This document shows, piece after piece, positions 36,183 through 57,489 of a stretch of DNA of 64,000 nucleotides. A program made the position numbers and the translations under genes. The notes beneath the pieces were generated by a model that saw only the letters and a list, made by a program, of their open reading frames with translations, did no database searches and had not been told where the DNA came from. Origin of the DNA: Rhizorhabdus dicambivorans (GTDB lineage Bacteria; Pseudomonadota; Alphaproteobacteria; Sphingomonadales; Sphingomonadaceae); assembly GCF_002355275.1 (NCBI RefSeq), contig NZ_CP023449.1:1900001-1964000 (forward strand). The letters run 5' to 3'. Each line of letters starts with the position of its first letter. Positions within the stretch are counted from its first letter, which is position 1.

Positions 36183-36192
36183 GGCGATCCCC

Positions 36193-36978: not shown

Positions 36979-36994
36979 CAGATGCTCCTTTTGG

Positions 36995-38125: not shown

Positions 38126-38146
38126 GGCCTGCCTCCTCGCTCGCGA

Positions 38147-39292
38147 TCAGGCGAAGGCGTCCAGCCCGGTCAGCTCGCGGCCGATCGTGAGCTTGTGGAT
38201 CTCGGTGGTGCCGTCGGGGATGGTCAGCAGCCGCGCATCGCGGAAATAGCGCTCGGCGGCGCATTCCTTGGTCAGGCCGATCGCGCCGTGGACCTGGATA
38301 CCGAGCGACGCCACCCGCACCGCCGCCTCGCAGGTATAGGCCTTGGCGATCGACACGGTTTTGCGGCAGCGTTCGCCGGCCATGAACTGTGACGCGACGC
38401 GATAGGCCATCAGCCGCGACAGCTCGGTCTCGATCGCCATGTCGGCCAGCATGCCCTGGACGAGCTGGAAGGAGCCGATCGGCCGGCCGAACTGCTGGCG
38501 GACCTTGGCATATTCGACGGCCAGATCCAGCGCGGCCTGGGCGATGCCGACGGCCATGAACATCATCTTGATCCGCGCTTCCTCGACGAAGCTCAGTGCG
38601 GTCTTCAGGCCGCCCTTGCCAGGGGTCAGCTCGGCATCGCCATCCAGCCGGCAGTCGACGAATGAGACTTCGCAGAAGGAGGTGGCGTGCCAGCCCAGCT
38701 TGGGGATGGTCCGCACCTCATATTGCTGGCGGGTGGCATCGACCAGGAACAGTGAGATCAGGCCCGATTCCAGATTGCGCGCCGCGACGATGATGCCCGC
38801 CGCGATCTGTGCGTTGGATGTCCAGATCTTGTTGCCGTTCAGCACCCAGCCGTCACCGTCGCGGCGCGCGGTGGTCTGCAGGCCGGCCAAGTGCGATCCG
38901 GCGTTGGGCTCGCTCATCCCCATCGCGACGATCTCGCCGGGGCCGAACATATGGCCATATTTCTCTTGCTGCGATCCCTGGAGCAGGCTGCCCAGGTCCC
39001 AGACCGGAAAGAAGACCGGCGTCGCGAGTGAGGCGAGGCTGGGGTTGAGCTTGCTGATCTCCTCAATGAAGATGCCCAGGCAGATCAGGTCGAGCCGGCC
39101 ATTCTCGTCGACCGGCGCGGTGGTGGCGATCTCATGGCCGGACACGTCGGCGCGCAGCGCCGCCACTTCTTCGCGGGTCTGCAGCCGGTCGAAATCATAT
39201 TTATCGTTGATCAGGGGCGCCAGCACGCGGCTGACGAAGCGCTGGACGCCCTCGCGATACTGGGCTTGTTCATAGGTGTAGGTCAGATCCAT
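38147..39292 (-). CDS. Acyl-CoA dehydrogenase family protein
   Basis: A 381-residue flavoprotein with all three ACAD domains. MGMSEPNAGSHLAGLQTTAR is the middle-domain FAD motif, YAKVRQQFGRPIGSFQLVQG and GAIGLTKECAAERYFRDARL are the C-terminal blocks. Where many acyl-CoA dehydrogenases have the catalytic Glu of an EGT motif, this one has Asp360 in IPDGTTEIHKL. It is 21 bases upstream of the AMACR-like gene. It probably oxidises a CoA ester of the island's substrate. Confidence 0.9.
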   Translation of the reverse strand: MDLTYTYEQAQYREGVQRFVSRVLAPLINDKYDFDRLQTREEVAALRADVSGHEIATTAPVDENGRLDLICLGIFIEEISKLNPSLASLATPVFFPVWDLGSLLQGSQQEKYGHMFGPGEIVAMGMSEPNAGSHLAGLQTTARRDGDGWVLNGNKIWTSNAQIAAGIIVAARNLESGLISLFLVDATRQQYEVRTIPKLGWHATSFCEVSFVDCRLDGDAELTPGKGGLKTALSFVEEARIKMMFMAVGIAQAALDLAVEYAKVRQQFGRPIGSFQLVQGMLADMAIETELSRLMAYRVASQFMAGERCRKTVSIAKAYTCEAAVRVASLGIQVHGAIGLTKECAAERYFRDARLLTIPDGTTEIHKLTIGRELTGLDAFA

Positions 39293-40245: not shown

Positions 40246-40761
40246 TCACTTCGGATGCGGGCTGATCATCAGGAAGGCGAAGGTGCCGCCGGTCTCGGTC
40301 CGCCAGGCGTGCGGGGTGCGCGGCAGATAGGCGGTATCGCCCGGCCTGAGCACGATCTCCTCGGTCTCGAGGATCAGGATCATCTCGCCCGCGATGCACA
40401 TGTCGAAGTCGATCGAGTCGGTGAAGTGCATCTTGCTCTGATAGCCGGGGCCATAGCTGGCGACGCACCAGCGGGTCACACCGGCCGGCACATCCAGGCT
40501 CATCAGCCCGGGCGCCTCGGTATAGTCGTTGGGGTCCTCCTCGACGATGCCGGCGGGGTTCATCCGGGTGGTGAAGACTTCGGTCAGCGCGCCCGAATGC
40601 GGGCCGGGCTGGAAGGTCGCGGGATTCTCGACCAGCCGGCGCTCCACGAAATGGGGCGCTTCCTCCGAACTGTTGGTCCAGGTCCAGGTGCGGACCGAGT
40701 CGGTGCGATGGAGGACCGCCGACTTGCCGTTCGCGTCGACGCCGGTGATGTAGCGCATCAT
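40246..40761 (-). CDS. Cupin-domain protein (first paralogue)
   Basis: A 171-residue cupin. The barrel is in the C-terminal half: GYQSKMHFTDSIDFDMCIAG (a metal-site-like H with D residues) and VLRPGDTAYLPRTPHAWRTE (second cupin motif). The N-terminal half resembles that of the cupin at 50923, so the two are probably paralogues. Its ATG at 40761 overlaps the stop of the NTF2-like gene. Non-heme dioxygenase, isomerase or a sensor role are all possible; the classical HxHx(3-4)E motif is degenerate. Confidence 0.85.
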   Translation of the reverse strand: MMRYITGVDANGKSAVLHRTDSVRTWTWTNSSEEAPHFVERRLVENPATFQPGPHSGALTEVFTTRMNPAGIVEEDPNDYTEAPGLMSLDVPAGVTRWCVASYGPGYQSKMHFTDSIDFDMCIAGEMILILETEEIVLRPGDTAYLPRTPHAWRTETGGTFAFLMISPHPK

Positions 40762-41195
40762 CGGGCCAATCCTCCGCCCGAAGCCGGGATCGAGTCGAGA
40801 TGGCGCGCGCGCAGGGTGTTGCGCACATGGTAGGTGTCGCCATGTTCCCAGCCTTTGACGATCCGGCCATCCTCGCCGATGTCGAACTGGAAGAAATAGA
40901 TATTGTTGTAGGGAACGCCGTTGTCCATCGTCCCATGCGATTCCGCGCGCACCGCGACGCGGTTCTCGTCGGCGGTGATGTCGTGAATCTCCAGAACCAG
41001 CCCGTCGGGGAATTGTGCGGTGATCAGCTTTTCCCAGAGCTCGATATAGCTCGCCATGCTGATTTCGCGCCGCTCGGTGAGGCTCCACCAGGAACCGGAG
41101 GGATCGACCATCGTCCAGGCGGTATCCAGATCGTTACGGGATTGCGCGTCGATAAACCGTCGGACCATGTCCTTGTTCTCAGCCGGCGTAGGCAT
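40758..41195 (-). CDS. NTF2/SnoaL-like protein (first paralogue)
   Basis: A 145-residue protein of the NTF2-like alpha+beta barrel superfamily (SnoaL, ketosteroid isomerase, limonene epoxide hydrolase). MVRRFIDAQSRNDLDTAWTM starts the helical part, GTMDNGVPYNNIYFFQFDIG and IVKGWEHGDTYHVRNTL the sheet. It resembles the plus-arm protein at 50193 (LDxAWxM, GS, L-R-IS-A). The ATG at 41195 fits the family. Cyclase, isomerase, dehydratase or epoxide hydrolase are possible activities. It is coupled to the cupin by a four-base overlap. Confidence 0.83.
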   Translation of the reverse strand: MPTPAENKDMVRRFIDAQSRNDLDTAWTMVDPSGSWWSLTERREISMASYIELWEKLITAQFPDGLVLEIHDITADENRVAVRAESHGTMDNGVPYNNIYFFQFDIGEDGRIVKGWEHGDTYHVRNTLRARHLDSIPASGGGLAR

Positions 41196-41259: not shown

Positions 41260-41275
41260 TTCTTTCGTCGTTCAA
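41260..41275. promoter_or_regulatory. Degenerate copy of the island's palindromic operator
   Basis: ttctttcgtcgttcaa matches the inferred TTGTACGATCGTACAA operator at about 10 of 16 positions and keeps the right half TCGT-CAA. It lies about 65 bases upstream of the NTF2-like gene start at 41195. Weak on its own; listed because of the stronger copies at other promoters of the island. Confidence 0.25.
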
Positions 41276-41308: not shown

Positions 41309-43516
41309 CTAGAACTTGAACTCGGCGGAGACGCCATAGGTACGCGGTGCGCCAGGCGAGCCATAGGGCGGCAGGCCCGTCGCTGTGCGGACCAGGGTGT
41401 AATATTTCTCCTTGAAGGCGTTCTTCACCCAGGCGCGCAGGGTGAAACGTTCGCTCTCCGGCGTCCAGCGACCCTCGAAATTGAAGATATTATAGGAAGG
41501 CTGACGGATCTGATTGTCAGGCTCGAAATAGAAGCCGTCATTATAGTAATAATTTCCGTTCAGGCCGAACTCGCCCATGCTCGTCGGGATGACATAGTCG
41601 AAGCCGAGGTTCACGGTCATCTTGGGTGTGCGCTGTAGATCGTGGCCGGAATTGTCGATCGGGGTGGCCACGCCGACGCCCGTGGTCGGGCTGGTGACGA
41701 ACGAGGTCGCGCCGGGATAGCTGTCATATTTGGAGTCGATGAACGAGACGCCGTAGGTGATCGAGAAGTCACGGGTGACGTTCGCCTGGCCCTCGATTTC
41801 CATACCATAGACGGTTGACTGGGCTGCATTGGCGGTGATTGCGCCAGTGGTACGGGTCTGCGTCAGCTGCAGGTTCTTATAGTCATAGTAAAAGCCCGAC
41901 AGGTTGATACGCACGCGGCGATCGAACAGCTCGGTCTTCAGGCCGACCTCATAGTCGGTCAGCGTTTCCGGATCGACCGGCGCCTGGCTGGGGTTCGACG
42001 CATTCCAGTAGCCGCTCTTGAAGCCCGTGCTGATGCTCGCATAGGCAAGCACCGTCGGGGTGAGCTGCTGCGAGATGGCGGCGCGATAGGTGAATTTCGA
42101 CTCATTCTTCTTGGTGCCGGCCGGAACCGTGAAGAGCAGCCCCTGCGCCGAGGTGGTGGTGCCGCTGAACTTCTTGCGGTCGGTGGTGTAGCGGCCCCCC
42201 AGGGTGATCAGCGTGTCGTCCGTGAACAGCGGGAAGGTGGCCTGCGCATAGGCGGAGTAGCTGTTGTTCACCTGCTCGGAGTCGTTGATGCGGAACTGTG
42301 AGGCGCCGAATGCGGGGGCAACGATCAGCTGCGGCTGATAGCCGGTCCGCGCATGGAAGTAGAACAGGCCCGCCTGCCACTGCAGCCGATTGCCGGCCGG
42401 AGCCAGAAGTTGCAGCTCGTTGGTCCAGCTTTCGGTGACATCGGTGAAGAAGGCGTTCGAAGCGGGGAACGGCGTCGCGTCGTTGTCGAGGTCCTCCCGG
42501 CGCTTCACCTGGCGGTAGGAGGTGGTGTTGACCAGGCGGATCGCATCGAAATCATGGGCGACGCGGAAATAGCCGCCATAATTCTTGGCGACGCCGATGC
42601 TGGCGATGTTGCTGATCGTGTCGTAGATCGAACCACGGAAGAAGGTGCCGGCCAGGCTGGGCGGTGGTGGCGGCAGGCCCGGCAGGGTCATCGCCGAGGC
42701 GCCGACGTCGGTCTTGGTATATTGATATTCGCCGACCAGCGTGACGGTGGTGTTCTCACCCGGCCTCCACTGCCATTTCGAACGGACCTGCCATTCCTTG
42801 CGGAAATTGGCATCGACGTTGAGGACCAGGTTACGGCCCCAGCCCTTGCTCTGGTTATAGCCATAGGCCGAGAAGTCGGCGGCCAGCGTCTCGGACAGCG
42901 GGCCGGACAGGTAGACGTCACCTTCCAGTGCCTGATAATTGGCATAGCCCGCCTTGATCCGGCCGGTCAGCGTGTCCGACGGATCCTTGGTAATGACGTT
43001 GATCAGGCCGCCCATGCTGTTGCGCCCGAACAGGGTGCCCTGCGGTCCCTTGAGAACCTCGACCCGCTCGATGCTGTTGAAGCTCGACGCGCTGCCGAGC
43101 GCGCCGGCATAGTAGACGCCGTCGACATAGAAGGCGACGGGCGGCTCTACGCCCGGCGCACGGCTGTTGGAGCCGACGCCGCGCAGGAAGACGGCGTTTG
43201 CGCCGCTGATGCGCTGCGTGTTCAGTGCGGGTACCAGCGTATTCAGATCTTCGGTGGTGCGCACGCCCTTCGAGGTCAGCGCGTCGGATGTGATCGCGGA
43301 CACCGAGATCGGAACCTTCTGCAGGCTTTCGCTGCGGCGCTGCGCGGTCACCACGATTTCGGTCAGAGCGCCGCTGTCGTCGGTGGCGTCGGCGCCTGGC
43401 GCGGCCACTGCCTGCGCCCCTGCGGGGGCCGCGATCACGAGGGCCAGGATCGAAGAAGCGCCGATCAGAAGGGCTATACCACCCCGACGGCGCGCCATGG
43501 CACGGAATTTTGTCAT
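41309..43516 (-). CDS. TonB-dependent receptor
   Basis: A 735-residue outer-membrane receptor. A signal peptide ends near residue 35 (APAGAQA), followed by a TonB-box-like EIVVTAQ at about 53-59. The plug domain contains NAVFLRGVGSN, VAFYVDGVYY and VEVLKGPQGTLFGRNSMGG, and the 22-strand barrel ends with the expected aromatic (SAEFKF). Such receptors in sphingomonad catabolic islands import hydrophobic substrates. Two operator-like elements lie about 200 bases upstream, so expression is probably induced with the catabolic genes. Confidence 0.95.
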   Translation of the reverse strand: MTKFRAMARRRGGIALLIGASSILALVIAAPAGAQAVAAPGADATDDSGALTEIVVTAQRRSESLQKVPISVSAITSDALTSKGVRTTEDLNTLVPALNTQRISGANAVFLRGVGSNSRAPGVEPPVAFYVDGVYYAGALGSASSFNSIERVEVLKGPQGTLFGRNSMGGLINVITKDPSDTLTGRIKAGYANYQALEGDVYLSGPLSETLAADFSAYGYNQSKGWGRNLVLNVDANFRKEWQVRSKWQWRPGENTTVTLVGEYQYTKTDVGASAMTLPGLPPPPPSLAGTFFRGSIYDTISNIASIGVAKNYGGYFRVAHDFDAIRLVNTTSYRQVKRREDLDNDATPFPASNAFFTDVTESWTNELQLLAPAGNRLQWQAGLFYFHARTGYQPQLIVAPAFGASQFRINDSEQVNNSYSAYAQATFPLFTDDTLITLGGRYTTDRKKFSGTTTSAQGLLFTVPAGTKKNESKFTYRAAISQQLTPTVLAYASISTGFKSGYWNASNPSQAPVDPETLTDYEVGLKTELFDRRVRINLSGFYYDYKNLQLTQTRTTGAITANAAQSTVYGMEIEGQANVTRDFSITYGVSFIDSKYDSYPGATSFVTSPTTGVGVATPIDNSGHDLQRTPKMTVNLGFDYVIPTSMGEFGLNGNYYYNDGFYFEPDNQIRQPSYNIFNFEGRWTPESERFTLRAWVKNAFKEKYYTLVRTATGLPPYGSPGAPRTYGVSAEFKF

Positions 43517-43709: not shown

Positions 43710-43725
43710 TTATACGGTCGATCAA
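43710..43725. promoter_or_regulatory. Palindromic operator-like element, copy 1 (TonB receptor promoter)
   Basis: ttatacggtcgatcaa matches the inferred palindrome TTGTACGATCGTACAA at 12 of 16 positions. It lies about 195 bases upstream of the TonB receptor start, in an AT-rich patch. The presumed ligand is the TetR protein encoded at 44195. Confidence 0.55.
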
Positions 43726-43731
43726 CTAAAT

Positions 43732-43747
43732 TATATCGGCTGTACAA
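43732..43747. promoter_or_regulatory. Partial operator-like element, copy 2 (TonB receptor promoter)
   Basis: tatatcggctgtacaa keeps the right half GTACAA and a left TTATAT just outside it, spaced one base wider than in copy 3. It lies 22 bases downstream (plus direction) from copy 1, so the receptor promoter may carry tandem sites. Confidence 0.35.
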
Positions 43748-44194
43748 TTGGTCCAAGCACTCTCCCGGAAAACTGCGGCGCCGGGCGCCATCGACCTGCC
43801 GGCAGCTGGTTCGGTCAACTGGGCCAAAGGCTGGTTGCCGAGACTCTGTCGCCGGTCGGGCAGGGCTCGTTTTAATCATTTTTTGAACGGACGTCTATCT
43901 TATTTTTGACGTGTTTCGATCGCGTGGACCTGGCCCTTTTCCGCCCTGTCCTGCTCCGAACCTATGGCGTCGCCGCCGGCGCGATCCCGCCGCGGGGATG
44001 GACGTGGTGCTGGCGAGGCCCGCGTGTAGCCGACGGGCGGGCGTGCCCGAGTTGGTCGCCGGAATAATTTTCCGTTCGGGATTCGATGTCGTCTTGACGC
44101 CGCTCGGCCTCGCGCCGACAGCTGTTTCCGTCCGATCCGATTCGGCGGAGCCGGAGCCCGGTGTGCAAGGGTTCCTGCTGGACGGATTGGCCGG

Positions 44195-44995
44195 ATGAAG
44201 CGATATTCGTTCGCCGCGTCTGCGCGGCGGCCCAGCCATGATGGGGACAGGAAGTTGGCGACAAATACGGCGGTGAGCAAGGTGGCCACCAAGGGTCGTG
44301 CCAGGCAGGCGCCGGTCGAGGCGGAAGCCAAGGCCGCCCCCGCCGCGCGCGGCGGCCGGAAGAAGTCCCGTGCCGGTGCCGATACCCGGGTGAAGCTGCT
44401 CGACGCGGCCGAGCGGCTGTTTGCCGAGGATGGCTATGACGGCACCTCGCTCCGCGATATCGCCAACCGCGCCAAGCTGCATCTTGCGCTCTCGACCTAT
44501 CATTTCGGGACCAAGGAGAAGCTTTTCGAAGAGGTGATCCAGCGCCGCGCGACCGAGATGGAGCAGATCCGCCTCGCCGAACTCGCGAAGATCGATCTCG
44601 ACAAGCTTTCGTCGGACGAGGCGCTGATGGCCCTGATTGAGGCCTATGCGCTGCCGATGATCCGCGCGCGCTACGGCCCGTCGCGGCAATGGCAGGCCTA
44701 TGTCCGCCTGGTGTCGCAGCTGATCAGCGTGAAGCGCTGGGTGCCGCTGATCCGCAAATATTACGACAATTGCGGCCGGCAGTTCATCGCGAAGTTCGAA
44801 AAGGTCCTGCCCCATGCCGATCATGACAGCCTGCTCGATTCCTTCTCGTTCATGATATCGAACATGCTGTACGTCTGTTCCTATACGAACAGGTTCGACA
44901 AGCAGAAGGCCAAGCATCTTTCCGCCAAGGAAGATGTCGATGCGGCCGTCAAGAACTTCCTGCGGTTCACGCACGCGGGCTTCAAGGCGCTCTAG
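44195..44995 (+). CDS. TetR family regulator of the catabolic island
   Basis: A 266-residue regulator. After a basic, Ala-rich leader of about 60 residues comes the TetR helix-turn-helix (VKLLDAAERLFAEDGYDG, SLRDIANRAKLHLALSTYHF), then a helical C-terminal domain with FAYALPMIRARYG-type features. The leader is unusual for the family; a start within it is possible, but the ATG at 44195 is the first. It lies at the divergence point of the two catabolic arms and is the obvious candidate to bind the palindrome repeated upstream of the receptor, Rieske, P450 and hydrolase genes. Confidence 0.9.
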   Translation: MKRYSFAASARRPSHDGDRKLATNTAVSKVATKGRARQAPVEAEAKAAPAARGGRKKSRAGADTRVKLLDAAERLFAEDGYDGTSLRDIANRAKLHLALSTYHFGTKEKLFEEVIQRRATEMEQIRLAELAKIDLDKLSSDEALMALIEAYALPMIRARYGPSRQWQAYVRLVSQLISVKRWVPLIRKYYDNCGRQFIAKFEKVLPHADHDSLLDSFSFMISNMLYVCSYTNRFDKQKAKHLSAKEDVDAAVKNFLRFTHAGFKAL

Positions 44996-45161
44996 CGCCG
45001 TCGAGCGGGTTCGCTCGATCGGAATGGTGGTCCGGCGGGGGTCGTTCTGCGGCGTGACCTGCTGCTCGTCCGCATGCGGCCTATCGTTCTGCGGGATGCC
45101 GGCGATGGCCACAAAACGGCCGTCGAGCCGGCTTTCGGGGGCGTTGGACCCGCACAAGAAT

Positions 45162-45177
45162 TTATATGGTCGTACAA
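45162..45177. promoter_or_regulatory. Palindromic operator-like element, copy 3 (Rieske gene promoter)
   Basis: ttatatggtcgtacaa matches TTGTACGATCGTACAA at 13 of 16 positions and continues into ataa. It is about 85 bases upstream of the Rieske oxygenase start in an AT-rich segment between two GC-rich ones. Confidence 0.6.
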
Positions 45178-45261
45178 TAAGTCTCATGCTATGTGGGCGG
45201 TGTATCGAGAGTCGCCCGAAAGCAGTCCCCGGGCGTGCTGGGCGATAGAAGGAGATGGGTT

Positions 45262-46422
45262 TTGGAAGGCCAAGTTGATGTTGAGCCCGAGGCTGGCGGA
45301 TCTACGAAGTCGAAGGGTTCGCGCCAGTTCCTGAAGGACAAGCTCCCGCGCGCCGGCCTCAAGGAATTCTGGTATCCTGCGGCCCGGGCCAAGGCGGTCG
45401 GGGAGAAGCCGATCGCCGTCAAGCTGCTCGGCGATGAGGTCGCGTTGTTCCGAGACGGGGGCAAGGTCCACGCCGTCCACAATCGCTGCCCGCACCGGGG
45501 CCTGCCGATGTCGATGGGCAAGCGCCATTTTCCGGGCACCATCTCCTGCGGCTATCATGGCTGGACCTTCGACATGAAGGGCAACTGCGTCGCCGCGCTC
45601 AATGAGGGGCCCTGCTCGCGGCTTCCGGGGCGCGTCAACCTGCGTACCTATCCGGTCGAGGAGCGCAGCGGCATCGTCTGGATATTCATGGGCGACAAGG
45701 CGCCCAAGCCGATCGAGGAGGATGTTCCGGCCGAACTGCTCGACAAGGATGCGATCACCTATTTCCATGTCGAGAACTGGGACTTCAACTGGCTGCCGGG
45801 TCTCGAGAATCTGATGGATACGCACGATCTGTTCGTGCACCGCAATTCGCCCTTCTACCTGTTCACCAAGATCCCGGCCTGGGCCGAGGTGGGCTCCGAG
45901 GTGATGGCTGATGGCCGTGGCGTCGCCTATCATTATTCGAAGGTCGGGCCCCTGCAGGAGGACTATCCCGGGCTCGGCAAATGGCCCAAGCGGGTCTGGT
46001 GGCGCAGGAAGAGGATCGCCGCGCCGAGCGGCGAATATCTGACCGCCGAACTGCGCCTGCCCGGCATCACCCGGGTTGGCTTCACCACGCTGATGTTCAT
46101 CCGCTACATGGTGCCGATCGACGAGAATAGCTGCCGCGCCTTCCTTTTCTCGACGCGGCGCGTCACCGGCATCCGGGCGCTGTTCTACCGGGCTTATTAT
46201 CATCTATGGGCGTCGTGGAGCCTGCTCAAGCTGTTCATCGGCCAGGATACGGTGGTGTTCGGCGCGCAGGATTATGATGCGCCCGAGCAGCTTTCGGCGC
46301 CCGACAACGGCATCATCAAATGGCGCCGTATCCTTGCCAGTTTCGCCGCCGCCGAGGCGGGGCAGGGCGATGGCGGCAGCGGCGGCCGCAAGATATCCAA
46401 GATCGATGTCGCCGCAGCCTGA
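45262..46422 (+). CDS. Rieske [2Fe-2S] ring-hydroxylating oxygenase, alpha subunit
   Basis: A 386-residue terminal oxygenase. The Rieske cluster motif is complete: Cys76/His78 in NRCPHRG and Cys96/His99 in SCGYHGWTF. The mononuclear iron region reads LENLMDTHDLFVHRN, with His188 and His193 correctly spaced but Asp186 only two before the first His instead of three. The frame opens at a GTG (45193), but the TTG at 45262 has AAGGAG seven bases upstream and is preferred. No ferredoxin, reductase or beta subunit is adjacent, as in VanA/KshA-type oxygenases. It probably hydroxylates or demethylates the island's substrate. Confidence 0.92.
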   Translation: MEGQVDVEPEAGGSTKSKGSRQFLKDKLPRAGLKEFWYPAARAKAVGEKPIAVKLLGDEVALFRDGGKVHAVHNRCPHRGLPMSMGKRHFPGTISCGYHGWTFDMKGNCVAALNEGPCSRLPGRVNLRTYPVEERSGIVWIFMGDKAPKPIEEDVPAELLDKDAITYFHVENWDFNWLPGLENLMDTHDLFVHRNSPFYLFTKIPAWAEVGSEVMADGRGVAYHYSKVGPLQEDYPGLGKWPKRVWWRRKRIAAPSGEYLTAELRLPGITRVGFTTLMFIRYMVPIDENSCRAFLFSTRRVTGIRALFYRAYYHLWASWSLLKLFIGQDTVVFGAQDYDAPEQLSAPDNGIIKWRRILASFAAAEAGQGDGGSGGRKISKIDVAAA

Positions 46423-46440
46423 CGTTTGTCTCTGGATTAT

Positions 46441-46456
46441 TTGTACGACTGCATAA
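46441..46456. promoter_or_regulatory. Palindromic operator-like element, copy 4 (second P450 promoter)
   Basis: ttgtacgactgcataa contains a perfect left half TTGTACGA; the reverse strand matches TTGTACGATCGTACAA at 12 of 16. It starts 19 bases after the Rieske stop and is 180 bases before the P450 ATG. An A-tract follows it. Confidence 0.55.
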
Positions 46457-46635
46457 AAAAATTGACTCGGCTCCGGGGCGCGACTAGCAGTTTGGCGAGG
46501 GCCGGGAAGCTGGCCGCTGCCGGCGATGCGTGCGACCACTCGGCTGACGCGTCGGTAACGGGCGCGCCACGCCGGCGATGGCGGGGCGTCCGCCCCGGGG
46601 TTGGGCCGCGCAGGACAGGCTTGAGGAGAGAGGTC

Positions 46636-47844
46636 ATGGAGTCTCAATCGATCGCGGGGGAAGCGGGCGGCGAAGCGGTCGACAGGCGAATGGCGGCGCT
46701 GGTCGGCGATCCGGGCTTCCATGTCGATCCTTACCCGGCCTATCGCGAATTTCTGCGCGCGCCGGGCTGGCGGACGCCGTCGGGCTACCGCGTCTTCTCG
46801 CGCTACAAGGACGTTCAGGACATATTGCGCGACCCGACCGCCTTTGGGCAGGAAGGGATTCCCTATCCCAATTTCCACGTTCTCAACCCGCCCGAACATA
46901 CGCGTCTTCGCAAGCTGGTGGCCAAGGCCTTCACCCAGCGTGCGGTGAACGATCGCATCGGCCAGATCACCGCCTTCGTCGATGAGCTGATCGACGATGT
47001 CGTCGCCGATGGCTCTATGGACTTCATGGGCCGCTTCGCGCTGGAACTGCCCGGGCGTGTGGGCGCATCGCTGCTCGATGTGCCCTATGAGGACATCCAT
47101 CTGTGGAATCACTGGCTGTGGGCGATCGGCCAATTTCGCGGCAAGACTCATTATCTGGGCGAAGGCAGCGACGCCGACAAGAAGATCGCCAAGGATGCGG
47201 CGGCGGCAGCAGCGGACTATTTCCGCAACCTCGTTGCGGACCGGCATTCGGTGCGCGGCACCGACATCGTCAGCTCTCTCTTCTCGGCCCGCGAGGGCGA
47301 GGATCGGCTGAGCGACGAGGAGATCATGTACAGCCTGGTGCTGATCCTCGGCGGCAGTCTTCACACCACCGCCAGCCAGCTCGGCAACATCTTTCGTGCG
47401 CTGTTCGAGCATCCCGATCAGCTCGCGCTGCTCGAAGCCGATCCCTCGCTGGTCAATGGCGTGGTCGAGGAGGGGCTGCGCTATGACGGGTCGCTCCAGG
47501 CCGAATATCGTGTCTGTCGCGTGGATACAGAGGTTAACGGCGTCGCGGTCGAGGCCGGCACGCCGATCATCGTCGCGGTCGGCGCCGCGAACCGGGATCC
47601 CGAGCAGTTCCCCGATCCCGATCGGTTCGACATCCGCCGCGAGAATGCGGCGCAGCACCTGACCTTCGGTATGGGCATCCATCGCTGCCTCGGCGCGCAG
47701 CTCGCCCAGGCCGAGATGCGCATCGCGGTCGAGGCGCTGATCCGCCGCCTCCCCAGCCTGCGGCAGGCGGGCGCGCTGGAGCAGCATGAATATGATCGCT
47801 GGCGTGGGCTGCGCTCGCTGCCGGTCGCCTGGGAGGTCGCATGA
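46636..47844 (+). CDS. Cytochrome P450 (second of two), with atypical I-helix
   Basis: A 402-residue P450. The heme ligand is Cys351 in FGMGIHRCLGAQLAQ; the ExxR motif is in VVEEGLRYDGS. In the I-helix, where P450s usually have (A/G)Gx(D/E)TT, this protein reads GGSLHTT: His243 takes the place of the acid before Thr244-Thr245. That residue pair normally delivers protons to bound oxygen. The ATG at 46636 has GAGGAGAGAGG upstream; the frame before it is not coding. It leads a six- or seven-gene operon, overlapping the next SDR by ATGA. No redox partner is adjacent. Confidence 0.92.
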   Translation: MESQSIAGEAGGEAVDRRMAALVGDPGFHVDPYPAYREFLRAPGWRTPSGYRVFSRYKDVQDILRDPTAFGQEGIPYPNFHVLNPPEHTRLRKLVAKAFTQRAVNDRIGQITAFVDELIDDVVADGSMDFMGRFALELPGRVGASLLDVPYEDIHLWNHWLWAIGQFRGKTHYLGEGSDADKKIAKDAAAAAADYFRNLVADRHSVRGTDIVSSLFSAREGEDRLSDEEIMYSLVLILGGSLHTTASQLGNIFRALFEHPDQLALLEADPSLVNGVVEEGLRYDGSLQAEYRVCRVDTEVNGVAVEAGTPIIVAVGAANRDPEQFPDPDRFDIRRENAAQHLTFGMGIHRCLGAQLAQAEMRIAVEALIRRLPSLRQAGALEQHEYDRWRGLRSLPVAWEVA

Positions 47845-48803
47845 ACATGGGGAATGAGCTTCGTTTCGACGGCAAGGTCGCAGTGGTGACCGGCGCCGGG
47901 CGGGGGCTGGGGCGCGAATTCGCGCTGCTGCTGGCGTCCAGGGGCGCGGCGGTGATCGTCAACGACATCGGTTCGTCGGTCGACGCGCAGCGCTACGCCG
48001 CAGGCGAAAAGGCTCCCAACCCGGCGGGCGAGGTGGTCGAGGAGATCATCGCGGCCGGCGGACGGGCGAAGGCGAACACCGCCTCGGTCGCCGATCCCGC
48101 CGGGGCGGCCTCGATCGTCGATGACGCGGTGGAGGCTTTCGGGCGGATCGACATCGTCATCAACAACGCCGCCGTGGTGCTCACCGAGCCATTCGCCACG
48201 ATGTCGCTCGACATGCTGACGACCAGCCTGGAGGTGAACCTGAAGGGACCCTTCCTGGTCGCGCAGCGCGCCTGGGGCCATATGCTGAAGCAGGGCGGCG
48301 GCCGCATCCTGAACATCTGTTCGGTCGACGGCGTCGTCTTCGGCAACGTCAACCATTCGGCCTATGACGCCGCCAAGGGCGGCCTCGCCGGCCTGACGCG
48401 GGGCATGGCCATCGAGGGGGCAGAGGTCGGGATCGCCGTCAACGGCCTGCTGCCCGGCGCCTATACGCGTGGCCAGAAGTCGGTCGACCAGTCGCTGACC
48501 CCGGTCAAGCTGATCGATATGCGGCCCGAACTGGTCGCCCCCGCCGCCTGCTGGCTGGTGCACGAGGCGTGCGGGGAGAATGGTGCCTTCTTCCATAGCA
48601 GTTCGGGCCGGCTCAGCCGCGTCTTCGTTGGCGTCGGTGAGGGGTTCCAGGACGTGCCCGAGCATTTCTCGATGGAGCGCATCCGCGACAATCGCGAGCA
48701 GGCTCACAGCTACGAACCCTATGTGTCGCCGCGTACCACCCAGGAGTTCAACGAGTTCCGGGTGCGCCGCTTCCGCGAGATCAACCCGCCGGTGGAGGCC
48801 TGA
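47841..48803 (+). CDS. SDR family oxidoreductase, MFE-2 3-hydroxyacyl-CoA dehydrogenase-like
   Basis: A 320-residue SDR. VVTGAGRGLGREFALLLASR is the cofactor motif, VIVNDIGSSVDAQ and VVEEIIAAGGRAKAN resemble the N-terminal dehydrogenase of peroxisomal MFE-2, NNAAVVL follows, and the catalytic Ser and Tyr-Lys are in NICSVDGVVF and YDAAK. A 60-residue C-terminal extension is present. A (3R)-hydroxyacyl-CoA or other hydroxyl substrate is plausible. It overlaps the P450 stop by four bases. Confidence 0.9.
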   Translation: MNMGNELRFDGKVAVVTGAGRGLGREFALLLASRGAAVIVNDIGSSVDAQRYAAGEKAPNPAGEVVEEIIAAGGRAKANTASVADPAGAASIVDDAVEAFGRIDIVINNAAVVLTEPFATMSLDMLTTSLEVNLKGPFLVAQRAWGHMLKQGGGRILNICSVDGVVFGNVNHSAYDAAKGGLAGLTRGMAIEGAEVGIAVNGLLPGAYTRGQKSVDQSLTPVKLIDMRPELVAPAACWLVHEACGENGAFFHSSSGRLSRVFVGVGEGFQDVPEHFSMERIRDNREQAHSYEPYVSPRTTQEFNEFRVRRFREINPPVEA

Positions 48804-48804
48804 G

Positions 48805-49368
48805 ATGCAGCGGCTTCCCCCCGCCGAACCCGGCGCCGAGGAAAAGGCCTTCCGCGCGCGCGAGGGCACGGTCTCGCCCAACATCCAGCTCGCCCTGGCG
48901 CATGCGCCGGAGGTCGCGCAAAAACAGCTTGAACTGCTGCGGGCCTTTTCCGCCGGCATGTCGCTGCGCGACAAGGAGGCGGCGATCCTCCACATCGCGG
49001 TGCTGACCGACAACAGCTATTGCTGGGGCTTCCATGTCCGTCCCGGTATCCGGGCCGGCCTCAGCGAAGCGGAGATTCGGGGCATCCTGGCCGGCGACCA
49101 TTCGATGTTCCCGCAAAGGGATCGCGATCTGCTCGATTTCGTGGGTGCCACGGTCGCGCAGACGACCACCGATCAGCAATGGGCACGGATGGCGGAAGGG
49201 CGATCCCATGAGGAGATCGTCAAGCTGATTTTCCTGGTCGGCTTCTACTGCATGCTCGGCAAGATCAATGCGGTCGTCCGCGTTCCGCTCGATCCCGGAC
49301 AGGGGGAGACGGATGGCGAGAGCTGGTCGCCGCTGGTGCGGGCGATGGTGGAAGAAGCAGCGCTCTGA
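48805..49368 (+). CDS. Carboxymuconolactone decarboxylase family protein
   Basis: A 187-residue helical protein of the AhpD/CMD fold. LRDKEAAILHIAVLTDNSYC leads into WGFHVRPGIRAGLSEAEIRG, with a single Cys73 and His77 rather than the CxxC pair of AhpD peroxidases, and HEEIVKLIFLVGFYCMLGKI near the C-terminus. The loss of CxxC points away from thiol peroxidase activity. It starts one base after the SDR stop, so it belongs to the same operon. Reaction unknown. Confidence 0.87.
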   Translation: MQRLPPAEPGAEEKAFRAREGTVSPNIQLALAHAPEVAQKQLELLRAFSAGMSLRDKEAAILHIAVLTDNSYCWGFHVRPGIRAGLSEAEIRGILAGDHSMFPQRDRDLLDFVGATVAQTTTDQQWARMAEGRSHEEIVKLIFLVGFYCMLGKINAVVRVPLDPGQGETDGESWSPLVRAMVEEAAL

Positions 49369-49392
49369 ATATTAGGAACGGGAGAGGCTAAG

Positions 49393-50193
49393 GTGGACCT
49401 GGGAGTTTCTGGAAAGACCGCGCTGATCGCCGGCGGATCGATGGGGATCGGCCGCAAGACCGCGGAGATTCTCGCCGCTGATGGCTGCGCCGTCGCGGTC
49501 GTCGGTCTTGCCGATGATCCGGCCTCGATCGCGGCGGCGGTCGATGCGATCACAGGGGCTGGCGGCAAGGCGATCGGCATCGGCGCGGACATGACCCGCA
49601 AGAGCGAGATCCAGCGCGCCATGGCCGAGTGCAAGGCCGCGTTCGGATCGCCCGATATTCTCGTCGCCAATGTGAACGGCCCGCCGCCCGGCTATTTCGA
49701 GGAAGTGACCGACGAGCAGTTCGAGGAAGCCGTCCGCAGCATGACGATGTCGCTCGTCTACACGCTGCGCGAGGCCTTCCCGCACATGAAGGAAAAGGGC
49801 TGGGGCCGCGTCGTCAACATGAACTCGATCGGCGCGAAGGAGCCGACCCGCTTCATCGGTCACACGCTGGTCAACACCGGCCGCGCGGCGGCGGTGGCGC
49901 TCTCCAAGTCGCTGTCCGACGAATATGCGCCGTTCGGCATCACCGTGAACTCGATCGGCACCGGCTTCATCGGCACCGACCGCTTCATGGGCTATTGGAA
50001 TCGTCTCTCGGAGAAGACCGGCGCGCCGCTCGACGAGGTGCTCAAGGACGTCACCGCCTCGATCCCCGCCGGCCGCATCGGCCGGGTCGAGGAGATTGCC
50101 GGGACGATCGCCTTCCTCTGCTCCGACCTGGGCGGCTATGTGAACGGCGAGTTCATCAATGTCGACGGCGGCTGGCACAGGAGCGCCTGGTGA
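49393..50193 (+). CDS. SDR-fold protein without the catalytic Tyr/Lys
   Basis: A 266-residue SDR of the 3-oxoacyl-reductase-like branch. IAGGSMGIGRKTAEILAADG is the cofactor motif, and VANVNGPPPGYFEEVTDEQF carries the GPPPG typical of its subgroup. Counting from Ser145 in NMNSIGAKEP, the positions of the catalytic Tyr and Lys are Thr158 and Thr162 (GHTLVNTGR). The subgroup is known to have this loss, so its reaction, if any, differs from a classical SDR. The GTG at 49393 follows AGGAACGGGAGAGG. The NTF2-like gene begins at its stop. Confidence 0.88.
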   Translation: MDLGVSGKTALIAGGSMGIGRKTAEILAADGCAVAVVGLADDPASIAAAVDAITGAGGKAIGIGADMTRKSEIQRAMAECKAAFGSPDILVANVNGPPPGYFEEVTDEQFEEAVRSMTMSLVYTLREAFPHMKEKGWGRVVNMNSIGAKEPTRFIGHTLVNTGRAAAVALSKSLSDEYAPFGITVNSIGTGFIGTDRFMGYWNRLSEKTGAPLDEVLKDVTASIPAGRIGRVEEIAGTIAFLCSDLGGYVNGEFINVDGGWHRSAW

Positions 50194-50660
50194 TGGCGGC
50201 ACCCGAAAGCCCGGCGGTCGTCCTACGCCCATCTTCCGAAGTGCTGGTGGGGCTCGGTGCGGATGTCGGCGCGGCCGCCCGGCTGGTCGTCCAATGGTTC
50301 GCCACCCTGTCCGAGGGCCACCTTGATGAGGCCTGGGCGATGATGGAGCGGACCGGCAGCTATTATCTGCTGCGCCAGCGCAAGACGATCTCGATCGCCG
50401 ATTTCACGGCGGTCATGTCGGGCCTCGTCGGCACCACCTTCGCCGGCCCGATCGTCTGGTCGCTGGGCGCGGTCACAGCGCAGGACGGCCGCGTCTCGGT
50501 GGTCGCGGGATCGAAGGTGCCGCTGACCAAGGGCGGCTATTACGAGAATCTCTACCATTTCCTTTTCCGCGTGGAGGATGGGCTGATCCGCGAAGGCTAT
50601 GAGTTCGCCGACACCTTCGTCTCGGCGCAGACCTTCGCCGCCCCTCCGGGAGAAGGCTGA
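50193..50660 (+). CDS. NTF2-like protein (second paralogue)
   Basis: A 155-residue NTF2-like protein, similar to the one at 40758 (EGHLDEAWAMM, then SYYLLRQRKTISIADFTAVM against the first copy's WSLTERREISMASYIELW). LYHFLFRVEDGLIREGYEFA is the sheet. The ATG at 50193 overlaps the SDR stop. Isomerase, cyclase or epoxide hydrolase activities are known in the superfamily. Its presence with a cupin in both arms points to a shared chemical step or two parallel steps. Confidence 0.82.
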   Translation: MAAPESPAVVLRPSSEVLVGLGADVGAAARLVVQWFATLSEGHLDEAWAMMERTGSYYLLRQRKTISIADFTAVMSGLVGTTFAGPIVWSLGAVTAQDGRVSVVAGSKVPLTKGGYYENLYHFLFRVEDGLIREGYEFADTFVSAQTFAAPPGEG

Positions 50661-50689
50661 GGCGGCGACGGCATCATCGGGAGGCTGAT

Positions 50690-50926
50690 ATGCAGGACAT
50701 GGGCGAAAGCTGCCCCTTCGCGTTCAATTTCGACGAACGGAGCTTCAAGGCGGGCGATATCGTCAGCTACCGCGTCGAGGGCCTCGCCGACTTTCCCTTC
50801 GTCGGCACGCTGATCGAGGTCCATGACGATCATGTCGTGATCAGCGCCGATCCGAAAGACGCGGCCAGCCGGATGCGGGCCACGCGCGAGAGCCGGCCGC
50901 TGGTCGCCGCAGGGGACGCGCTTTGA
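50690..50926 (+). CDS. Small unknown protein in the P450 operon
   Basis: A 78-residue protein with a compact beta pattern: FKAGDIVSYRVEGLADFPFV then GTLIEVHDDHVVISADPKD, which could be a small SH3-like or Hfq-like barrel. It lies between the NTF2-like and cupin genes and overlaps the cupin start (TTGA at 50923-50926). Operon position and codon use support it as a gene; I do not recognise the family. Confidence 0.75.
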   Translation: MQDMGESCPFAFNFDERSFKAGDIVSYRVEGLADFPFVGTLIEVHDDHVVISADPKDAASRMRATRESRPLVAAGDAL

Positions 50927-51384
50927 ATCCGGAGCGGTCCACGAAACGGGTGGTGACGGGGCGCGGGGCGGATGGCCGGGACGCCATCCTGCAGCAGGGG
51001 CCGATCGACCCGATCGCCGGCATGGCCGGCAGCGCCAACCAGACGCGGCTGCACTGGGCGACGTCCGATCCTGTCACCCTGCCGCATGACGGCACCGATC
51101 CGGTGGCGGGCGCCGGGATGTCGATGCCTGCGCCGGGCGAGACCCTTTTCCTCCAACTCACCCTCGTCCCGCATTCGGCGACGCCGATCCATGCGACGCC
51201 GACCCTGGACTATGTCGCGATCCTGTCCGGCGAACTGTGGCTGGTCATGGAGGATGGCGGGGAGACCCGGCTGACGGCGGGCGACACGGTCGTCCAGAAC
51301 GGTACGCGCCACGCCTGGGAAAACCGTTCCGCCGAACCGTGCACGATGATGGCGGTGATGGTCGGCGCGAAAGTCATTGATTGA
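50923..51384 (+). CDS. Cupin-domain protein (second paralogue)
   Basis: A 153-residue cupin. LVPHSATPIHATPTLDYVAI and LSGELWLVMEDGGETRLTAG form the first motif and TVVQNGTRHAWENRS the second. Its N-terminal half matches the other cupin (TGxxANGK / TGRGADGR and following), supporting paralogy. The start is a TTG at 50923 that overlaps the upstream stop; no ATG precedes the conserved part. The metal-ligand set is incomplete, so a non-oxygenase function is possible. An operator-like palindrome overlaps its stop codon. Confidence 0.82.
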   Translation: MNPERSTKRVVTGRGADGRDAILQQGPIDPIAGMAGSANQTRLHWATSDPVTLPHDGTDPVAGAGMSMPAPGETLFLQLTLVPHSATPIHATPTLDYVAILSGELWLVMEDGGETRLTAGDTVVQNGTRHAWENRSAEPCTMMAVMVGAKVID

Positions 51385-51396
51385 ACGATCGTACAA
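51381..51396. promoter_or_regulatory. Palindromic operator-like element, copy 5 (hydrolase promoter)
   Basis: ttgaacgatcgtacaa is the best copy: 15 of 16 match to the perfect palindrome TTGTACGATCGTACAA, and 14 of 16 bases are self-complementary. It overlaps the cupin stop codon and lies about 80 bases before the hydrolase ATG, so the last two genes probably have their own regulated promoter. Confidence 0.65.
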
Positions 51397-51473: not shown

Positions 51474-52385
51474 ATGAGCAGCGAAGTCGCGCAGGCCGGC
51501 AGTTTCTGGCTGGAGCTGGTTGGAACGGGCCTCAAGGAGAATTTCCACCTCGTCTCGGGCGTGCGTACCCGGGTGCTGGAGGCGGGATCGGGCCCGGCCC
51601 TGCTGATCCTGCACGGCACCGGCGGCCATGCCGAAACCTATCAGCGCAACATCGGGCCGCTCTCGAAATATTTCCGGGTGATCGTGCCAGACATGATCGG
51701 CCATGGCTTCACCGATCGGCCCGATCTCGATTACACGCTCGATGACTTCGCCGATCATCTGTTCGGCCTGCTCGACGTACTCGGAATCGACAAGGCCCAT
51801 GTCTCGGGGGAATCGCTGGGCGGCTGCATCGCGGCCTGGATGACGATCCGCAATCCCGAGCGGGTCGACCGGCTTGTGCTCAACACCGGCATCCTCGATC
51901 GCCCCGACGCGAAGGGGCTGGTCCAGCTTGCGGACCTCGAGCAGCGGACCAAGACGCTGGCCGAGGATTGCTCGCTCGATACGGTGCGGCGGCGCCTTCA
52001 ATGGCTGGTGCTCGACAAGGATACGATGACCGAGGAGATGGTCCATATCCGTCATCGCATCTACAACCAGCCGGGCATGATCGATTCCGTGATCCGGGTG
52101 ATGGGCGCCGTCCTGTCGATGAACCGCGGCCTCTACAAGGGCGGCGACTATCTCGCGCGCGAACGGATGGCGCAGATCAGCCGTCCGACCTTGGTGCTGT
52201 GGAGCGATCATAATCCCGGCAAGCCCTATGACGTGATCAAGCCGGCGATCGACCTGATTCCCGATGCCGAGGTGCATATCATCAGGGATGCCGCGCATTG
52301 GCCGCAGTTCGAGCAGCCCGACGCCGTCAACGGCCTGATGATCGACTTCCTCACACGGCCCGAAGCGGCCCGGTCGGCCGCCTGA
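51474..52385 (+). CDS. Alpha/beta hydrolase, meta-cleavage-product hydrolase type
   Basis: A 303-residue hydrolase related to BphD/XylF-type carbon-carbon hydrolases. LLILHGTGGHAETYQRNIGP is the oxyanion block, PDMIGHGFTDRPD a family signature, VSGESLGGCIAAW carries the nucleophile Ser, LWSDHNPGKPYD the acid, and AAHWPQFEQPD the histidine. The ATG at 51474 is preceded by GGAG. No extradiol dioxygenase is in the window, so a C-C hydrolase role needs a partner elsewhere; ester hydrolysis is the alternative. It is fully equipped, unlike the minus-arm relative at 39347. Confidence 0.9.
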   Translation: MSSEVAQAGSFWLELVGTGLKENFHLVSGVRTRVLEAGSGPALLILHGTGGHAETYQRNIGPLSKYFRVIVPDMIGHGFTDRPDLDYTLDDFADHLFGLLDVLGIDKAHVSGESLGGCIAAWMTIRNPERVDRLVLNTGILDRPDAKGLVQLADLEQRTKTLAEDCSLDTVRRRLQWLVLDKDTMTEEMVHIRHRIYNQPGMIDSVIRVMGAVLSMNRGLYKGGDYLARERMAQISRPTLVLWSDHNPGKPYDVIKPAIDLIPDAEVHIIRDAAHWPQFEQPDAVNGLMIDFLTRPEAARSAA

Positions 52386-53257
52386 TGCCGGACCCGCTGG
52401 CCTTGGGATTCATCGGGCTGGGTGACATGGGCGGCCCGATTGCCGAGCATATCCTGGAGGCCGGCCACGCGCTTGGCCTGTGCGATCTGCGCGCGGAGGC
52501 GGTCGCGCATCTGGTGGCGCGCGGCGGCCGGGCGGCGGCGAGCCCCGCCACGCTGGCGGCGGAAAGCGACGTGCTGTTCCTCTGCGTGGTCGACGACAAG
52601 CAGGTCCTGTCATTGAGCCGGGACCATCTCGTCGGGGCTATGCGCTCTGGTTCGGTTCTCGTCATCCTGAGCAGCGTGCGGCCCGACACGATGCACCAGC
52701 TGCAGGCGCTGTTCGACGGGCGCGGCGTGGAGCTGCTCGATTGCCCGGTTTCCGGTTCGCGGCCGGCGGCGGCGGCCGGCACCCTCACCCTGATCATCGG
52801 TGGCGACACCGAGCTGATCGATCGGCTCCGTCCGGTGCTGGAATGCTTTTCGGAGCGCATCTTCCACACCGGCCCGCTCGGCTCGGGACAGGCGATGAAG
52901 ATCGCCAACAACGTGATGCTCCACATGAACCACCTCGTCGCGCTCGAGGCGGTTCGCTTCGCTCGCGCGCAGGGCATTGCCGAGGAGAAGCTGATCGAAG
53001 TGGCGAACACCAGTTCGGGCCGCTCCTGGGTCACCGAGACCTGGGGGCTGATCGACGACATGTTCCGCGATCATCCCCAGGCGGGAACGCCCGGCATCTA
53101 CGAGATGATGGTCAAGGAGATGTGGAACTCGGTGCTGCTCTCGCGCGGCAGCGAGACCTGGCTGCCGCTGACCGGCCTGGGCCTCCAGGTCAGCCGCGCC
53201 TTCTACGAGGAGCGCGAGCGGCAGCTCGGCATCGTCCCCGCCGACGAGCGGGATTAG
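52385..53257 (+). CDS. NAD-dependent oxidoreductase, 3-hydroxyisobutyrate dehydrogenase family
   Basis: A 290-residue beta-hydroxyacid dehydrogenase. LGFIGLGDMGGPIAEHI is the cofactor motif, DCPVSGSRPAAAAGTLTLII the substrate loop, and GSGQAMKIANNVMLHMNH holds the catalytic Lys. Its ATG overlaps the hydrolase stop (TGATG), and the pair would be transcribed from the promoter near 51390. It likely oxidises a short hydroxy acid from the pathway. Its stop overlaps a convergent small gene by four bases. Confidence 0.9.
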   Translation: MPDPLALGFIGLGDMGGPIAEHILEAGHALGLCDLRAEAVAHLVARGGRAAASPATLAAESDVLFLCVVDDKQVLSLSRDHLVGAMRSGSVLVILSSVRPDTMHQLQALFDGRGVELLDCPVSGSRPAAAAGTLTLIIGGDTELIDRLRPVLECFSERIFHTGPLGSGQAMKIANNVMLHMNHLVALEAVRFARAQGIAEEKLIEVANTSSGRSWVTETWGLIDDMFRDHPQAGTPGIYEMMVKEMWNSVLLSRGSETWLPLTGLGLQVSRAFYEERERQLGIVPADERD

Positions 53258-54999: not shown

Positions 55000-56133
55000 T
55001 CAGTCGCGTGATTTGGCGGGCGCCCAGGTCTGGTAGGTCTGGCCGCGCCAGCTGTCGGTGAGCCCGACGAAGATCGCGCTGATCGACAGGAAGATCTCCC
55101 CGATCTGCCCGAACGGCCGGATATGCGCGCGCGCCAGCAGCAAGGTTGCCGCCGCCGCTGCCCATAGCGCCAGTGCCCAGCCCGCCTGTCCCGCCAGCAG
55201 CAGCGCGGCGGTGGCGCACAGCCCGCTCAGCGCCAGGATCGGCAGGCCCAGCCAGCGCAGCAGCTTGTGCGACACATATTTGTAGATGTCGGCCGCGCCA
55301 TAGCTGCGCCATATCTGTGGCCAGAGATGGCGGTGGGTGTTGAAGGCGCGGCAGGCGATGCGGCGCTTGCGGCGGAATTCGTCGGCCGAGGCGGTGGCGT
55401 TCTTCTCATAGGCCACCACATCGGCGGCGTGGATCAGTCGGTAGCCGGCGAAGGTCGTGCTCATCGACACCGTCATGTCGTCGAGCAGGTGGGGCGGCAC
55501 CTCGGGATAGAGGTGGCGGCGCGTCGCGAAGATCGAGCCATCGGCGCCCATGATTGAACCGCAGTGCGACTCCCGGCGCTTGATCCATTCCTCCAGCCGC
55601 CAATAGAGCCCGCTGACCTCGGCGGTCAGGCTGTCGGCATCGTTGATGTAGCGCAGCGTTCCGGCGACGCCGCCCACCTCCGGATCGCTGAAATAGTCGA
55701 GCAGCCGGTCCACCGCGACAGGGTCGAGCAGCACATTGGCATCGGTGAAGATGCAGATATCGGCATAGCTGGTGGCGACCATGCGGCGCATGCCCGTCGC
55801 CTTGCCGGTGCGTTCGGTCGAAGGCACGACGCGCAGCAGGTCGGGCCGCGCGCTCAGCATCTCCAGCGTCCGGTCGGCGCTCATGTCCGAATAGGCGACC
55901 ACGTCGGTCGCGGGGTGGAGCGCCTTGATCTCGGCGACGTTCGCCAGCTTGGCGGGGAGGGCGCGCTCCTCATTATAGGCGGCGAAGAACAGCGAGGCGC
56001 TGTGCGGGCGCGGCCCGGCGCCCCTGCGGACCGGCCGCTCGCGGAACAGCAGCAGGCTCAGTGGATAGCTGATATAGGGGTGCAGGAAGAGCAGCAGCAG
56101 CACCGCCGACAGCAGGGCGAGGATGGTGATCAT
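55000..56133 (-). CDS. Glycosyltransferase family 2, processive type, membrane-bound
   Basis: A 377-residue inner-membrane glycosyltransferase. An N-terminal helix (residues 3-25) and several C-terminal helices flank the GT2 domain. The motifs are VVAYSDMSADRTLEM, FTDANVLLDP (DxD-like), HLLDDMTVSM and FRRKRRIACRAF (RxxR near the Q/RxxRW position). It should build or extend a surface polysaccharide. It is last in the minus-strand polysaccharide operon. Confidence 0.88.
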   Translation of the reverse strand: MITILALLSAVLLLLFLHPYISYPLSLLLFRERPVRRGAGPRPHSASLFFAAYNEERALPAKLANVAEIKALHPATDVVAYSDMSADRTLEMLSARPDLLRVVPSTERTGKATGMRRMVATSYADICIFTDANVLLDPVAVDRLLDYFSDPEVGGVAGTLRYINDADSLTAEVSGLYWRLEEWIKRRESHCGSIMGADGSIFATRRHLYPEVPPHLLDDMTVSMSTTFAGYRLIHAADVVAYEKNATASADEFRRKRRIACRAFNTHRHLWPQIWRSYGAADIYKYVSHKLLRWLGLPILALSGLCATAALLLAGQAGWALALWAAAAATLLLARAHIRPFGQIGEIFLSISAIFVGLTDSWRGQTYQTWAPAKSRD

Positions 56134-56146
56134 GGGCGGTGCCTCC

Positions 56147-57367: not shown

Positions 57368-57370
57368 GGA

Positions 57371-57462
57371 CGCCGCCCCGGCGGAGGCCGGGGCCGCAAC
57401 CGGTCTGTGCGGCCAGGTCGAGGCAAGCGCCGCCAGCGGCCCCGGCCTCCGCCGGGGCGACG
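57371..57462. repeat. Palindromic repeat between ugd and the barrel gene
   Basis: Two 27-base arms, 57371-57397 and 57436-57462, are reverse complements apart from one mismatch (core gccccggcggaggccggggc). The resulting hairpin ends three bases before the barrel gene ATG. The GCCCCGGCGGAGGCCGGGGC core is the interspersed palindrome widespread in sphingomonads and related bacteria. It either separates the two genes or is translated within a longer barrel protein. Confidence 0.85.
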
Positions 57463-57489
57463 CTCTGCTCAGATTCTGGACCAGCCCGA

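Follow-up and report, generated by a model that had tools for sequence, protein, structure and literature searches.

Candidate operators for a predicted pair of NicR2-type TetR repressors in three catabolic islands of Rhizorhabdus dicambivorans

Genes and operator-like sites of the locus

We analysed a stretch of 64,000 nucleotides from Rhizorhabdus dicambivorans (GCF_002355275.1, NZ_CP023449.1, positions 1,900,001-1,964,000 of the forward strand), which is called the window here and within which the positions of island 1 are counted. The window contains an 11.5-kb catabolic island (island 1) with genes for a TonB-dependent receptor, a Rieske oxygenase, a P450 operon and a hydrolase-dehydrogenase pair, together with a tetR gene (tetR1) and four main copies of a 16-base, operator-like motif (Table 1). 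It is highly probable that these copies, and similar sites in two further islands of the genome, serve as operators for two NicR2-type TetR repressors, TetR1 and its paralog TetR2, by which the uptake and oxygenase units of the three islands would be silenced.

The four copies had been noticed in a first-pass annotation, and their coordinates were correct when the sequences were re-read. Compared with the form TTGTACGATCGTACAA, the copies at 43710, 45162, 46441 and 51381 have 4, 3, 4 and 1 mismatches, respectively, and no other 16-mer in the window has four or fewer; the 45162 copy also fits the degenerate pattern TTRWAYGNNCRTWYAA with zero mismatches. They are individually imperfect palindromes, with 8, 10, 8 and 14 symmetric positions out of 16 in the same order. 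Each was said to lie ahead of a unit of its own, and indeed the start codons of the TonB receptor, Rieske oxygenase, P450 and hydrolase genes were found 193, 84, 179 and 77 bp downstream, respectively. The 51381 copy overlaps the cupin frame, whose final 4 bases it shares.

To avoid circularity, a matrix was built from eight sites of island 2 only, and was then applied to the window. Its top four matches over the whole window were the main copies, and the fifth scored 13.6 bits. At a threshold of at least 16 bits, this matrix found four matches in island 1, none in the 52 kb of the window outside that island, and one in 400 kb of control DNA, which was taken from the same genome in stretches spaced by hand and not drawn randomly. 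In the reverse test, the matrix from the four sites of island 1 found eight matches in the 18.5-kb island 2 and one in 400 kb of the genome. When the matrices were permuted with palindromy and composition kept, none of 500 reached the count of island 1 or of island 2 (maxima, 3 and 6). The earlier judgement that such a recurrence is unlikely by chance is therefore upheld by a matrix from an independent locus.

The annotation had also listed two weaker copies, neither of which stands alone. The one at 43732 is better assigned to a variant of 17 bases (43731-43747), a possible second operator, which scores 8.6 bits in the 16-mer register and resembles the NicR2 Phsp operator taken on the opposite strand, as given in PMC6550519. 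The other, at 41260, is barely palindromic, and the two-island matrix gave five control matches at 13 bits or more, which is the level of this copy.

Table 1. Features of island 1 (window positions) and motif sites of island 2 (C1 positions)
Feature	Position	Strand	Sequence	Remarks
SnoaL-like protein	40758..41195	-		downstream of TonB receptor; Pfam
Weak candidate	41260..41275			between TonB receptor and SnoaL-like gene; 13.1-13.6 bits; 4/16 symmetric
TonB-dependent receptor	41309..43516	-		Pfam
Operator 1 (candidate)	43710..43725		TTATACGGTCGATCAA	precedes TonB receptor gene (minus strand); 20.7 bits, rank 3 in window, island-2-only matrix
Possible second operator, tandem pair	43731..43747		TTATATCGGCTGTACAA	variant of 17 bases; 21 bp away from operator 1
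Weak candidate	43883..43898			upstream of tetR1; 12.2 bits, island-2 matrix
TetR1, NicR2-like repressor (predicted)	44195..44995	+		TetR_N and TetR_C_30; N-terminal stretch low confidence
Operator 2 (candidate)	45162..45177		TTATATGGTCGTACAA	precedes Rieske oxygenase gene; 24.7 bits, rank 2, island-2-only matrix
Rieske oxygenase	45262..46422	+		best matches among solved structures: carbazole 1,9a-dioxygenase oxygenases
Operator 3 (candidate)	46441..46456		TTGTACGACTGCATAA	precedes P450 operon; 17.9 bits, rank 4, island-2-only matrix
Cytochrome P450	46636..47844	+
Short-chain dehydrogenase	47841..48803	+
Carboxymuconolactone decarboxylase-family protein	48805..49368	+
Short-chain dehydrogenase	49393..50193	+
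Cupin protein	50923..51384	+		final frame ahead of operator 4
Operator 4 (candidate)	51381..51396		TTGAACGATCGTACAA	precedes hydrolase-dehydrogenase pair; 26.0 bits, rank 1, island-2-only matrix
Alpha/beta hydrolase, meta-cleavage hydrolase-like	51474..52385	+
6-Phosphogluconate / 3-hydroxyisobutyrate dehydrogenase-like protein	52298..53257	+
Island 2 site	3943364			P450/GMC oxidoreductase
Island 2 site	3946357			CoA transferase
Island 2 site	3949574			extradiol-type dioxygenase, major facilitator superfamily (MFS) carrier, tetR2
Island 2 site	3949827			F420-type oxidoreductase
Island 2 site	3951451			enoyl-CoA hydratase/P450
Island 2 site	3953645			short-chain dehydrogenase/reductase (SDR)
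Island 2 site	3953738			P450, CoA transferase
Island 2 site	3956494			ferredoxin (read by eye), then FAD reductase and hydrolase
Island 2 site	3960155			glutathione S-transferase on one side; 3-hydroxyisobutyrate-dehydrogenase-like frame (read by eye) on the other
Island 2 site	3961006			dioxygenase

Three islands in the genome

The genome (5.54 Mb, five contigs) was searched for the motif by pattern and profile searches. The TTGTACGATCGTACAA form with up to three mismatches was found at 11 places, six of them in three islands, against three for the backwards control. Exact matches to TTRWAYGNNCRTWYAA, a pattern composed after the sites had been seen, numbered six, all inside the islands, and with up to one mismatch there were 20 places (three in island 1, seven in island 2, four in island 3 and six elsewhere; control, 7). 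The profile search placed its ten best matches in islands 1 and 2, whose sites were its training set. Thus, the places do not form the random scatter that the annotation had named as a refutation, since 6 of 11 and 14 of 20 fall in the three islands, and the isolated matches outside them are close to the control level. The claim that the motif occurs only at the promoters of island 1 holds within the window, but not genome-wide, where two other catabolic islands carry clusters of it as well. The regulon probably extends past island 1 to a total of three islands, and its candidate regulators are a pair of TetR paralogs, where the annotation had a single TetR.

Six isolated TTRWAYGNNCRTWYAA places (73591, 2892317, 3460856, 3977785, 4949456 and contig 2 at 26953) and three further ones of the TTGTACGATCGTACAA form (113420, 4042944 and 4764488) were left out of the regulon. 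Those at C1:73591 and C1:2892317 are the same 16-mer in reverse complement (22.5 bits); each is single, with no second site of at least 12 bits in the 20 kb around it, and the neighbouring genes encode a pyridine-nucleotide oxidoreductase with a Fer4_20 domain and a radical SAM protein.

Island 2 (C1:3.943-3.961 Mb) has ten sites scoring 14.3-26.4 bits with the two-island matrix, for which five of the ten were training sites. Island 3 (3.734-3.739 Mb, around 3734406) has four sites in the 11.9 kb scanned, with 15.3-20.6 bits by the island-2 matrix and 11.7-19.3 bits by the two-island matrix. Two of them precede a TonB receptor gene, one precedes an SDR gene, and one lies between the genes of a luciferase-like monooxygenase and an acyl-CoA dehydrogenase. 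Island 3 is less strongly supported than islands 1 and 2, because permuted matrices sometimes reach its count (of 500, two gave four matches at 12 bits, and three did so with the other matrix), a count that is partly selected, as the island was located from a site within it. The MFS carriers of islands 2 and 3 are 64% identical. Beside island 3, an 870-aa open frame (L128:16342-18954) matches an Lrp/AsnC regulator only in its last part and is probably overlong. In the three islands, 17 measured sites lie 37 to about 240 bp ahead of start codons; such gaps are accurate to about one base, 5 of 21 start positions being off by one base.

Two gene groups adjoin island 1 in the window, both on the minus strand. 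At 34932-39292 are P450, CoA transferase and acyl-CoA dehydrogenase genes, where no operator match of at least 9.5 bits was found, and at 55000-58794 are glycosyltransferase, beta-barrel porin and UDP-glucose dehydrogenase genes, which look like a polysaccharide cluster.

TetR1 and its relatives

TetR1 belongs to the TetR family, as both of its domains exceed the curated Pfam cut-offs (TetR_N, 51.2 bits against 24; TetR_C_30, 66 bits against 26.3). Its paralog TetR2 (C1:3946416-3947129), 56-57% identical, is encoded inside island 2, and the recognition-helix stretch ALSTYHFGTK is identical in the two proteins. A third homolog (33%, C1:4016239) has the palindrome pair TTGGTCGATCCGCCAA and TTGGTCGATCCACCAA just upstream (C1:4016145 and 4016176), related to the motif but different, and a TonB receptor gene is located about 2 kb ahead of it.

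Among solved structures, NicR2 (PDB 5fgl and 5fhp) gave both the best Z and the best sequence E-value for TetR1. NicR2 is the nicotine-degradation repressor of Pseudomonas putida, which sits as dimers on an inverted repeat over the -35/-10 region and is antagonised by a pathway compound, according to PMC6550519. When the NicR2 operators quoted there were scored, the two-island matrix gave 16.3 and 16.1 bits and the single-island matrices gave 14.4-17.0 bits.

The DNA upstream of other tetR genes was compared for 80 relatives kept among the matches listed, 76 of which have at least 150 bp upstream; the four shorter ones were left out. The palindrome TTGWACGATCGTWCAA occurs within three mismatches in the 350 bp before tetR in 23 of the 76, whereas among 3191 other windows from these loci only 3 contain it. 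None of 400 permuted palindromes reached 23 relatives, the best one reaching 12. Same-genus relatives are not independent, and the 23 include three Hoeflea, two Delftia and two Cupriavidus; examples from these genera are TTGAACGATCGTTCAA, CTGTACGATCGTACAG and CTGTACGAGCGTTCAG, respectively. Four relatives (L029, L045, L049 and L055) carry TTCAACGATCGTTGAG, TTCAACGAGCGTTGAA, TTCAATGATCGTTGAA and TTGAACGTACGTTCAA, respectively, upstream of tetR, so that position 3 and the centre vary among the operators.

The presence of TetR2 in the motif-rich island 2, the fit of the NicR2 operators to the matrix and the palindromes of the relatives link TetR1 to the motif. These results support the annotation's proposal of a TetR regulon with the 44195 protein as its candidate regulator.

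Other known regulators were also compared. An identity of TetR1 with PsrA was rejected from its 67.5 bits against the NCBIfam PsrA equivalog cut-off of 300. PsrA, a TetR-type regulator linked to fatty acids, corresponds to PA3006 (PDB 2fbq). The operator of PsrA, given as G/CAAAC(N2-4)GTTTG/C in PMC13104628, is different from TTGTACGRYCGTACAA, derived from the column counts here. PA3973 of Pseudomonas aeruginosa was rejected as a model for the Pseudomonas relatives, because its motif SAAGRNMTGAACG, as it appears in PMC9736018, differs. PheR of Sphingobium (PMC13273656) is similar in that one repressor is tied to TonB-dependent uptake functions and aromatic oxygenase genes, but it is an IclR-family protein unrelated to TetR1, with a GCAACG core motif. 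Literal searches of open-licence papers for the motif strings and for PF17939/TetR_C_30 found none.

Predicted regulation and its alternatives

In the proposed mechanism, dimers of TetR1 and dimers of TetR2 would recognise WWTTRTACGRYCGTAYAAWW-type palindromes, and the bound repressors would keep the uptake and oxygenase genes of the three islands silent until a pathway compound loosened them and the units were switched on together. Repression with joint release is the likeliest mode by analogy with NicR2, with which the system shares the TetR fold, inverted-repeat operators of the same sequence class (a comparison of DNA only) and, as predicted here, one repressor over two promoters of one catabolic cluster. 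By contrast, nicotine genes and their inducer are found on the NicR2 side, and two paralogs and three islands in R. dicambivorans. TetR2 is probably autoregulated, because tetR2 appears to close a dioxygenase-MFS-tetR2 unit with its own operator. The oxygenases, CoA transferases and TonB receptors of the islands suggest a hydrophobic cyclic compound as the substrate.

Several observations weigh against this interpretation. NicR2 is only 26-28% identical to TetR1, and a scan for sigma-70-type promoters around the sites found 2 against 1.2 expected, so that no NicR2-like overlap with -35/-10 was placed. The tetR1 gene has no strong operator directly ahead of it, 5 of the 11 genome places of the TTGTACGATCGTACAA form are outside the islands, and 53 of the 76 listed relatives are below the palindrome threshold. 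TetR1 orthologs were found only in its own genome among 298 family genomes (E 1e-50, with 8 candidates scored per listed genome; 297 negative) and among 14 genus genomes (E 1e-40; 13 negative), so that these promoters offer no comparison between species; in 72,556 plasmid records (E 1e-20), 8 records matched, the best being 35% identical. The closest outside relative among the matches listed, from a Rhodoferax metagenome-assembled genome (48%, L022), has no good site in the 350 bp before tetR. Its locus gave four weak matches (10.2-12.9 bits, two-island matrix), while about one is expected at the control rate: 7090 precedes a LigB-type dioxygenase gene, 14160 and 14193 lie between a glyoxalase-type dioxygenase gene and a Rieske gene, and 7644 is at no clear promoter.

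It is conceivable, though unlikely, that the sites are true operators bound by a single paralog, for example TetR2, and that TetR1 has another role. Ten sites were counted in the island of TetR2, where the apparent tetR2 unit is preceded by an operator, while island 1 contains four sites and tetR1 lacks a clear one in front of it; however, the identical recognition-helix stretch, and the ability of a matrix from either island to find the sites of the other, argue that both paralogs would share the sites. An activator acting from sites upstream of promoters is improbable: some gaps to start codons are long (142-237 bp) and the scan did not locate promoters, but 14 of 21 measured gaps are 104 bp or shorter, and NicR2, as described in PMC6550519, is a repressor whose site covers -35/-10. 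It is very improbable that the sites are bound by some other regulator, with its gene at another place in the genome. The genome holds 16 further TetR1 matches at E 0.001 or better, and island 3 has the motif with no TetR1 match there among those listed and no TetR among nine proteins scanned. Nevertheless, the two closest paralogs are encoded in the islands with the most motif sites, the subfamily is connected with the motif by NicR2 and by the upstream palindromes of the relatives, and the third homolog has its own, different palindrome pair. Chance likeness among A+T-rich intergenic DNA, which the imperfect palindromy of the copies and their A+T-rich flanks might suggest, has a negligible probability in view of the permuted matrices of equal composition and the single control match of the cross-locus matrix.

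Returning to the repressor system of TetR1 and TetR2, its two paralogs might have ligand domains that diverged, share a single operator in the three unlinked islands and form a two-sensor gate that arose by repressor duplication, possibly with heterodimers, in which a long pathway would be freed only by two different compounds or by either one; we raise this tentatively, as a possibility.

With these results, unnamed oxygenase islands become one predicted regulon of about 18 operators with named candidate repressors, which offers targets in the search for the substrate and in the construction of sensors. They also suggest that a TetR subfamily of many proteobacteria may use operators of the same class as NicR2, the nicotine repressor.
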